Assembly: GCA_019118565.1 (NCBI GenBank)
Contig: DWYR01000009.1
Coordinates: forward strand, 186,001 to 250,000
Direction: 5' to 3'
DNA length: 64,000 bases
DNA from: Candidatus Alistipes avicola
Lineage (GTDB): Bacteria; Bacteroidota; Bacteroidia; Bacteroidales; Rikenellaceae
Shown here: piece by piece, positions 6,027-8,885 of the stretch
Position numbering within the stretch: the first letter of the stretch is position 1
How the letters are laid out: every line of letters begins with the position of its first letter
Program-made: the position numbers and the translations under genes
The notes under the pieces: model-generated
The model's input: the letters and a program-made list of their open reading frames with translations, nothing else
Databases searched by the model: none
What the model was told of the DNA's origin: nothing

Positions 6027-6800
6027 CTATCTGAACGATCGCTCATCCTTTGTCGCTCTATCATTATTGTTCGTATCCGCTACGAGAGGGGAATTCTCCT
6101 GCTGCAAATCGGCAAACCAATACGTATACGTTTTTCGGGTTCCGTCATCCAACCCGATCTCATAACTACGACAAAATGGCTTCCCCAGCCGGAACGGCAC
6201 CGGCAAAGAGAATATCGGGCCATCGTAGCAGAACGTATGGTACTCGCCGTTCTCGCCGTTCGGATCGACCGACACAGGGAGCGATGCGATAAATTCCGGG
6301 GTGATCTCCCGGCCGATGGCACCGGCACCCAACCCGTCGGCCATGGTCGTAACCACGACAGTTTGAAGGCCCGATGTCAGGAAATCGGCGATCACCTCCT
6401 GCGAGGAGCGATCCCACAAAGGCTCCACGACCTCGATTCCATGCGGAGCAAGCTGACGCTCGCGGTACTTGCGGACATCGTGCAGGAAAATGTCCCCAAA
6501 AATAAAGTGGGTAACACCCTGCGCCTTGAAGTGTACCACGGCCCGCGACATGGCCGACTCATAATCCTCCATATTCCCTTTGGGGGTCAAATCCACGGCA
6601 TAGAGCGGAATACCGATCCGCTCGGCCTGCGCTTCGAGCAACGGGAGAGGAATACAGTGCATCGTCGAACGACGCGTATCGCGATTGAAGGTTGTCAAGA
6701 GAGCGACGATCTCATAGAGCCCCGATTGTTGCGCCCGCAGCAGGGCGTGAGCGGAGTCCTTGCCTCCGCTCCAGTTGAAAACAGCCTTTATCCGTTCCAT
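6027..6800 (-). CDS. DUF71/COG2102 (Dph6-related) ATP-pyrophosphatase family protein
   Basis: PP-loop FNWSGGKDSAHALL at the N-terminus; GDIFLHDVRKYRE, EPLWDRSSQEVIADF motifs. Start chosen at MERIKAVFNW, overlapping the upstream gene. Confidence 0.85.
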   Translation of the reverse strand: MERIKAVFNWSGGKDSAHALLRAQQSGLYEIVALLTTFNRDTRRSTMHCIPLPLLEAQAERIGIPLYAVDLTPKGNMEDYESAMSRAVVHFKAQGVTHFIFGDIFLHDVRKYRERQLAPHGIEVVEPLWDRSSQEVIADFLTSGLQTVVVTTMADGLGAGAIGREITPEFIASLPVSVDPNGENGEYHTFCYDGPIFSLPVPFRLGKPFCRSYEIGLDDGTRKTYTYWFADLQQENSPLVADTNNNDRATKDERSFR

Positions 6801-7363
6801 TCCACACAATCCGCATTATGGAAAAATCCGCAAACAAGGGTCAAGTATTCGGGCAGCATCCCATTCTGCCCCCATTTCAATTCGATTCCGAAGAGTTCGG
6901 AAGTCGTCTTCCCGATATTAAAACCGAAAGCCTCCAGGGAGGGACGGACCAACTCCGGATGGCGGCAGGGGAGATTCTCCCGACGGGCACAAGTCCCCTC
7001 CGGGCAGTACAGGCACGTTCCGGCATAGGCAAAAGAGTGCCCATCATATTGCTTCTCCATCTCCCGCAAACAATTCTCCAGCCGTCTCCGCTCAGGCAAG
7101 ATCAAACGGCGGGCTTCTGAAATCGGAATCTGCTGCTCGTCCGGGACAATCTTCGTTGCAATAAGGAAGGCCGTCCGATAGCGGGCCAACACCTCTTCGG
7201 CATCGAACTCAAAAGGAGGGCACCCCCAACTGCGGCCATAGTTGGGGCAAGCACGGCAGCACGCCTCGAAACGGGCGGCATCACGGAATCCGGCGACATA
7301 GTCGCGCACCGGCAGTACGGCGGTAAAATCCTGCGCCGCATAGGATAGCATCTGTTCGAACAT
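6788..7363 (-). CDS. DUF2284 family cysteine-rich metal-binding protein
   Basis: CCRACPNYGRSWGCPPFEFD and CLYCPEGTCARRENLPCRHPELVRPSLEAFGFNIGKT are typical DUF2284 patterns. Confidence 0.82.
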   Translation of the reverse strand: MFEQMLSYAAQDFTAVLPVRDYVAGFRDAARFEACCRACPNYGRSWGCPPFEFDAEEVLARYRTAFLIATKIVPDEQQIPISEARRLILPERRRLENCLREMEKQYDGHSFAYAGTCLYCPEGTCARRENLPCRHPELVRPSLEAFGFNIGKTTSELFGIELKWGQNGMLPEYLTLVCGFFHNADCVEWNG

Positions 7364-7564: not shown

Positions 7565-7590
7565 TTGTTCAAAATAAACCTTTATATTTG
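7565..7590 (+). promoter_or_regulatory. Predicted promoter for the cobalamin riboswitch transcript
   Basis: -7 box tatatttg (7583-7590, TAnnTTTG) directly upstream of the riboswitch; an upstream ttg lies near the -33 position. Confidence 0.6.
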
Positions 7591-7597
7591 TCCCAGA

Positions 7598-7800
7598 TTT
7601 GGTTTTCCCATTCTCCGCAACCGGAGGGGAAATGAAAAGGGAATCGGGTGCAAATCCCGAACAGTCCCGCTGCTGTGAAGCTCCGCGACGTTCCGAACAT
7701 CTCAGCCACTGACCTGCACTAGGTCGGGAAGGCCTCGGAACAGGAGCGAGTCAGAAGACCTGCCAGATCGATTCGACATCGAAAGCCCCCGTGGACTGGG
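7598..7800 (+). ncRNA. Cobalamin (AdoCbl-type) riboswitch
   Basis: gggaatcgggtgcaaatcccgaacagtcccgctgctgtgaag...gccactgacctgcactaggtcgggaaggcc...agtcagaagacctgcc; B12 box at 7749-7764. Outer boundaries approximate. Confidence 0.95.
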
Positions 7801-7994
7801 ATTCCGATTTCGTTGCATATTGCACTTTATTTTATAAGAGCAAAAGTTCCGATCCCCTCATCGGAGCATGCATGATTCCGAGGCCTCGAATCATCGAGAA
7901 CCAAGGGGAAAAGCACAGGTTTTAAGTACCCGGCATCTTTACTCGGGTATATCGGTTCATCGCACATCAGCGATTGATACCGGGCAAGGGAAAT

Positions 7995-8075
7995 AAAAAG
8001 GCGCGGCAAAAAAATAGACTCGTAGCTGCCAAGAGAAATAAATAAGAGATTGAATGTGTACGCCGCGCCTTTTTT
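7995..8075 (+). terminator. Candidate terminator: GC-rich inverted repeat with T-tract and 54-nt loop
   Basis: aaaaaggcgcggc (7995-8007) pairs perfectly with gccgcgccttttt (8062-8074), followed by another T. Confidence 0.5.
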
Positions 8076-8136
8076 ACTTTTCTTCCTCCTAACTTGAAAG
8101 AACTACACCTTCCAGACAGAGAAACAGTCGCTCCAT

Positions 8137-8323
8137 TTTGTCTCTGCGCTCACCTTTCACTATCTTTGTTCAGACAGGCTACGGGTTGGGATAAAAAATA
8201 TAAGGAACAAGTTTCGATATTTTATTCTCCTTTCACCTTTCCCTATCTTTACAGAAAATAGGATGCGCCTCAGACAAATTCGCAAACAAGTTTGCATTTG
8301 CCTCTCGGCTTTCGCTATCTTTG
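8137..8323 (+). promoter_or_regulatory. Three tandem promoter-like elements upstream of cobO
   Basis: TTTCnCTATCTTTR occurs three times, with -7 boxes at 8161-8168, 8244-8251 and 8316-8323. Copies 1 and 3 have an upstream TTTG at 20-21 nt spacing. Confidence 0.6.
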
Positions 8324-8360
8324 CTGAAGATCGGGGGTAGCTCCGATCCCAACACTCGTT

Positions 8361-8885
8361 ATGAACATGGAACAAACAGGCTACCTTCACGTCTATACGG
8401 GAAACGGCAAGGGGAAGACAACCTCGGCATTCGGATTGGCCGTCCGGGCTCTGTGCGCAGGCCGCAGTGTCTATATCGGGCAGTTCGTCAAGTCGATGAA
8501 GTACAACGAGACGAAGATCGAGCAACTCTTTGATCGAGTACGGATCGAACAGCTCGGAAGCGGATGTTTTATCACACGGGAACCGGCTCCGGAGGATATC
8601 CGGCTGGCACAGGAAGGGTGGGCCCGTTGTGCGGCACTGCTCGAAAGCGGCGAATACGACCTGGTCATTCTGGATGAACTGACCATCGCCCTGCATTTCG
8701 GGCTGCTCACAACCGATCAGGTGCTGAAGACACTGGCTCGCCGCAACCGTTCGGTCGAGGTAGTCATCACAGGCCGATATGCCCCGCAAGCATTGATCGA
8801 CGCAGCGGATCTGGTTACGGAGATGCAGGAGATCAAACATTACTATACAAAAGGAGTCCTCTCGCGGGAGGGGATCGACCGTTAA
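8361..8885 (+). CDS. cobO: Cob(I)yrinic acid a,c-diamide adenosyltransferase (CobO/BtuR type)
   Basis: GYLHVYTGNGKGKTTSAFGLAVRA P-loop, DLVILDELTIALHFGLL, VVITGRYAPQALIDAADLVTEM motifs. Confidence 0.94.
   Translation: MNMEQTGYLHVYTGNGKGKTTSAFGLAVRALCAGRSVYIGQFVKSMKYNETKIEQLFDRVRIEQLGSGCFITREPAPEDIRLAQEGWARCAALLESGEYDLVILDELTIALHFGLLTTDQVLKTLARRNRSVEVVITGRYAPQALIDAADLVTEMQEIKHYYTKGVLSREGIDR

Follow-up and report, generated by a model that had tools for sequence, protein, structure and literature searches.

The window, i.e. the whole 64,000-nucleotide stretch of a Candidatus Alistipes avicola contig analysed here, contains a cobalamin riboswitch with no gene close behind it, and the balance of the evidence tips towards regarding it as an orphaned operon leader: the riboswitch RNA would have survived the loss of its gene and would mostly end at position 8075, with cobO, the next gene on the same strand, transcribed from a promoter of its own. 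This reading draws on the aptamer, the homology of a downstream RNA element, synteny, the absence of an ORF and a set of promoter-like repeats, all of which can be read directly in the DNA, whereas the uncoupling of cobO and the order of events are reconstructed from them. The features involved are the following (position, strand, description).

6788-7363, minus strand: DUF2284 metal-binding protein, divergent neighbour (PF10050)
7583-7781, plus strand: cobalamin riboswitch aptamer, B12 box ending at 7764 (RF00174, 116 bits, E 2.1e-28)
7583-7590, plus strand: putative -7 promoter box TATATTTG of the riboswitch transcript (TAnnTTTG match)
7782-7812, plus strand: conserved hairpin-like extension 3' of the aptamer (blastn conservation in orthologues to about 7812)
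7813-7994, plus strand: linker, strongly folded here, sequence not conserved (z -3.15 and -3.7; 35-52% identity)
7995-8075, plus strand: diverged copy of a Rikenellaceae RNA element (model R1, 41.1 bits, E 1.3e-8; inverted repeat)
8026-8031, plus strand: loop motif CTGCCA of the inner hairpin, the hairpin being decayed here (CTGCC in 12/12 elements)
8045-8051, plus strand: conserved motif AGAGATT (motif comparison across elements)
8141-8334, plus strand: three copies of a dispersed promoter-like repeat (8141-8179, 8224-8262, 8296-8334)
8361-8885, plus strand: cobO/btuR, corrinoid adenosyltransferase, 174 aa (PF02572, E 2.9e-62; NCBIfam TIGR00708, above cut-off)

The aptamer matches the RF00174 covariance model over its full length, above the gathering score of 31.5 bits, and is the top-scoring one among the six cobalamin riboswitches of the genome. 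The box at 7583-7590 fits the TAnnTTTG consensus given for the Bacteroidetes -7 box (PMC7366714), and the initial annotation of the region as a cobalamin riboswitch with its own TAnnTTTG box is thereby upheld; orthologous loci carry TATCTTTG at the corresponding position. The riboswitch RNA is predicted to respond to cobalamin. With 7565-8380 as the query, blastn against 121 genus genomes detected orthologous riboswitches about 80% identical, in which conservation extends mostly to about 7812 and is then lost; the hairpin-like extension at 7782-7812 is presumably P13. The DUF2284-type neighbour is syntenic in relatives (loci L008, L010 and L020). Elsewhere in the same genome, two cobalamin aptamers are arranged in tandem, 136 nt apart, 5' of a lipoprotein-like ORF (G000 C5:29805-30340; loci L002, L005).

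The end of the B12 box is separated by 596 nt from cobO, the first real ORF beyond it on the same strand, in accordance with the earlier statement that no convincing one follows for about 560 nt. Such a gap is exceptional in this genome, where an ORF lies about 130-275 nt beyond each of the other aptamers, the first of the tandem pair apart, behind which the second aptamer comes next. Only short ORFs were found within 7783-8360, none of them related to the family of about 122 aa described below, and comparison of 7780-8360 with known Rfam RNAs gave sub-threshold matches only. The 182-nt linker at 7813-7994 is strongly structured: none of 200 shuffles was as low as its predicted fold, and in a second folding comparison it had the lowest z among 14 loci. 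Its identity to the orthologous linkers, compared in a set lacking a near relative, is at background level. Lack of conservation of 7800-8075 in relatives had been named in the initial annotation as an argument against a non-coding RNA, and 7813-7994 is indeed not alignable, yet it is unusually structured in this genome. Among the smaller inverted repeats listed there, those near 7927 and 7960 are hairpins of the predicted fold, while the one at 7873 amounts to a short hairpin only.

The linker is followed by the perfect 13-bp inverted repeat previously noted, exact at 7995-8007/8062-8074, which encloses a 54-nt loop and ends in six T's (8070-8075). The 64 kb contain seven inverted repeats with arms of at least 13 bp and gaps of at most 100 nt, where an order-1 Markov null predicts 0.075; loops measure 4-14 nt in the other six, and this repeat alone exceeds 14 nt, which agrees with the remark that its loop is long for a classic terminator. 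In common with intrinsic (Rho-independent) terminators, the stem is perfect and GC-rich, lies between an A-tract and a six-U tract, and is directly followed by the latter; unlike them, it has a long loop carrying conserved motifs, within which a nested hairpin is found in relatives. The stem at 7995-8075 was not picked up by a terminator scan restricted to loops of 3-8 nt. The outer stem and its T-tract are likely to be a terminator, at which transcription would stop at 8075, and the loop, unusual for an intrinsic terminator, counts against the orphaned leader.

Comparison among relatives indicates that this stem is more than a plain terminator, being part of a conserved element not in Rfam. 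At several of their loci, a stem of this kind, its loop measuring about 44-70 nt, lies downstream of the riboswitch and shortly 5' of a small ORF. The loops have in common the sequence GAC-nn-GTTA-CTGCCA-TAAC-nn-GTC, then AGAGATTAGT, corresponding to a layout in which a GC-rich outer stem with a U-tract at its end contains an inner hairpin with loop CUGCC(A), followed by (A)RAGAUUAGU; besides the outer stem, the motifs of the element are CUGCC and AGAUUAGU. A covariance model, R1, was built from six relatives, leaving out the window. Its score on the plus strand of the window compares with 76-94 bits for the intact copies used in model building, and on the reverse strand it drops to 29.6 bits, the stem alone matching. 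R1 matches were found in 12 of 180 genus genomes; across the family the figure is 13 of 268, one of them from another genus (G218, 58.4 bits), while a 294-genome sample of the order yielded only the genome of the window (G000) and two short, weak matches. The notion of dispersed copies was discarded, R1 detecting one locus per family genome, except that G088 has a weak second match (C91, 29.8 bits) and that the stem is echoed on the reverse strand.

In an alignment of 12 elements, 95.8% of the cells of the two-helix structure are paired and both partners have changed in 11 of the 20 pairs (mean of 3.7 in shuffles, with 0/500 as high); the covariation score is 0.302, against at most 0.074 in slid controls. 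Of the two helices, the inner is the less securely supported, because the alignment (A5) was fitted to the model, with G063 and the window poorly aligned in that helix, and its reliable covariation comes mostly from G108. CTGCC is invariant, and (A)RAGAUUAGU is largely kept; a random loop with the composition of the window would contain CTGCCA and then AGAGATT with a probability of 5e-6. The copy in the window retains the outer stem and both motifs, along with 2 of the 7 inner-helix pairs. No Rfam family fits the element, the loci of relatives giving cobalamin and tRNA only. An ANTAR-like reading of the inner hairpin was set aside, as the hexaloop CUGCCA would not show the A1/G4 pattern. The element, absent from Rfam, may be among the candidate structured RNAs of human microbiomes (PMC8040213). 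In Bacteroidetes, initiation is tuned by mRNA structure close to the start codon (PMC6847099); in relatives, the element could therefore influence not only termination but also translation of the ORF.

The small ORF, of about 122 aa, lies about 13-20 nt 3' of the element in 10 of the 13 R1-positive genomes (G009, G012, G063, G076, G088, G108, G160, G174, G175, where it is cut by the contig end, and G218). Upstream of it, RF00174 was called in G009, G012, G063, G088, G108, G174 and G218; G175 has a B12 box before the element, G076 has a blastn match to the riboswitch before a permease gene, and the contig of G160 begins within the permease gene, so that sequence further upstream is outside view. 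The permease gene, of the Asp-Al_Ex/TrkA-C type, is located directly 5' of the element in G054, G076, G160 and G218, the family having been named on the copy of G054, whose diverged element is not called by R1. In several genomes a permease lies between the cobalamin riboswitch and the ORF (L023:1749-3221, L107, L088), a possible cobalamin-regulated transporter. In G160, element and ORF are directly followed by a cobO 71% identical to that of the window; in G066, where there is no R1 element, the riboswitch is followed by the ORF and then by a cobO fragment. These arrangements show the ancestral leader to have been part of an operon of the form riboswitch - (permease) - element - ORF of about 122 aa - (cobO).

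The family of about 122 aa was found in 17 of 121 genus genomes, six of which have an R1-detectable element, and a GTDB-wide scan returned 15 loci, in Alistipes records only; its range covers Alistipes and one other Rikenellaceae genus, usually 3' of a cobalamin riboswitch. The proteins follow the pattern MNI[VL]LYGxP... and often end in CAHEGI (L079-L093, e.g. L084:5001-5366). No family was matched in Pfam or NCBIfam, nor did PDB sequences give anything below E 0.2; the moderately confident model (pLDDT 81) predicts an alpha/beta fold, which found no match in the PDB at E <= 0.001.

This ORF was not found in the genome of the window, where no ORF stands closely behind the element, and no remnant of it is present in 7783-8420. 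Two relatives, G106 and G123, keep an intact riboswitch and element, with the ORF truncated or without a start and no intact same-strand gene close behind the element. They look like separate losses, because their nearest aptamer relatives, G175 and G012, both keep the ORF. Their elements are 89-94% identical to those of G009 and G175, and their linkers 30-65%. As orthologous loci place the leader in an operon, the lack of a gene appears to be the derived state here; the direction, i.e. loss here and not gain elsewhere, rests on synteny, not on a dated tree.

The three promoter-like repeats belong to a dispersed repeat of about 72 nt, with a TAnnTTTG-like box and an internal palindrome (GCAAACAAGTTTGC), for which 12 matches, sometimes in tandem, were found in the genome. 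The other copies read lie immediately 5' of same-strand genes (G000 C4, C5, C9, C16, C22, C23, C24), and similar copies were detected by blastn in other genus genomes, so that the repeat looks like a mobile or amplified promoter. Since three of these repeats precede cobO, with the last -7 box (8316-8323) 37 nt upstream of the start codon, transcription of cobO from a promoter of its own is probable. Of the 121 genus genomes searched, only 3 yielded a cobO relative, and therefore most of the genus may lack a cobO-type adenosyltransferase or use another type.

According to the orphaned-leader reading, transcription would start at about 7597, pass through the intact aptamer and the structured linker, and mostly stop at 8075 in the outer stem of the element. 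The element would formerly have been located 5' of the ORF of about 122 aa and then cobO; the ORF would have been lost in this lineage, the inner hairpin decaying but the terminator stem being kept perfect, and copies of the promoter-like repeat would have come to precede cobO, providing it with its own promoter. The product would be a riboswitch RNA of about 480 nt, with the original gene no longer behind it, and any cobalamin effect on cobO would occur via read-through only. A transcript of this size ending near 8075, before cobO, had been proposed initially, and is made plausible by the conserved outer stem, by the repeats preceding cobO and by the riboswitch and element kept beside a broken ORF in G106 and G123. 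A leader without any use would be expected to decay; that this aptamer outscores the other five of the genome, and that the linker is unusually well folded, hints at some remaining function, a point against this reading.

Alternatively, the riboswitch might still control cobO, through cobalamin-dependent read-through of the 7995-8075 stem. This would correspond to the unusually long cobO leader also considered in the initial annotation, and is in keeping with cobO being part of the ancestral operon (G160, G066), with the intact aptamer and with the terminator stem between the two. We consider it rather unlikely, given the three promoter-like repeats directly 5' of cobO, other copies of which also precede genes; moreover, no antiterminator pairing was identified, and direct control of the stem by the aptamer is not general, because a permease gene intervenes just before the element in G054, G076, G160 and G218. 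The adjacency of element and ORF, maintained even with the permease gene directly upstream, fits a tentative possibility of another kind, in which the element is a second sensor, a ligand or protein aptamer nested in the terminator, that controls the ORF independently of cobalamin, and of which the window would hold a broken relic. CUGCC is kept in 12/12 elements and (A)RAGAUUAGU in most, while linkers are at background; both helices covary, and the element, not in Rfam, is present in a second genus. It is nevertheless confined to one family, with an R1-detectable copy in just 6 of the 17 ORF-bearing genomes, and the limits of the inner-helix alignment given above (A5 fitted to the model, G063 and the window poorly aligned, covariation mostly from G108) apply to this argument as well.

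A dedicated non-coding RNA, in which the RNA of about 480 nt, or the linker within it, has a B12-controlled action in trans, by analogy with AspocR and Rli55 of Listeria (PMC8079631), is improbable. The linker folds better than its shuffles in both comparisons, and G106 and G123 have kept aptamer and element after their ORF decayed; yet a single strongly folded sequence is weak evidence, and this persistence may merely reflect a recent loss. As the linker folds well but its sequence is not conserved among orthologues, such an RNA is possible rather than shown. From the stand-alone RNA initially suggested, a transcript ending before cobO thus stays plausible, whereas the rest is not borne out as stated, the lack of a gene being derived and 7813-7994 not alignable. 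It is similarly doubtful that the locus represents a two-module regulator, made up of a cobalamin aptamer and an uncatalogued, terminator-nested RNA sensor, which has outlived its gene in three lineages as a B12-controlled free RNA.

Taken with the orphaned leader itself, the analysis adds to the cobalamin-riboswitch operons of Rikenellaceae a small structured RNA element not in Rfam, an unannotated protein family and a permease. Like other RF00174 riboswitches, the one in the window has a full-length aptamer with a B12 box, starting at a Bacteroidetes-type promoter box; it differs in the distance to its next same-strand gene, while in relatives the next gene is an uncharacterised ORF or a permease. 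The Listeria precedents invoked in the initial annotation are real (PMC8079631), and resemble the locus in the window in that a non-coding transcript, not an adjacent gene on the strand, comes after the aptamer. In Listeria, B12 ends the RNA at about 200-230 nt, near the aptamer, and the long form has a known role (PMC8079631), whereas the RNA of the window has one predicted 3' end and no conserved non-coding body behind the aptamer (7813-7994, at 35-52% identity, no near relative being compared). Next to these systems, the locus provides a case of a riboswitch outlasting its gene, for which relatives supply intermediates; it is relevant to how riboswitch-controlled non-coding RNAs could originate from ordinary leaders.
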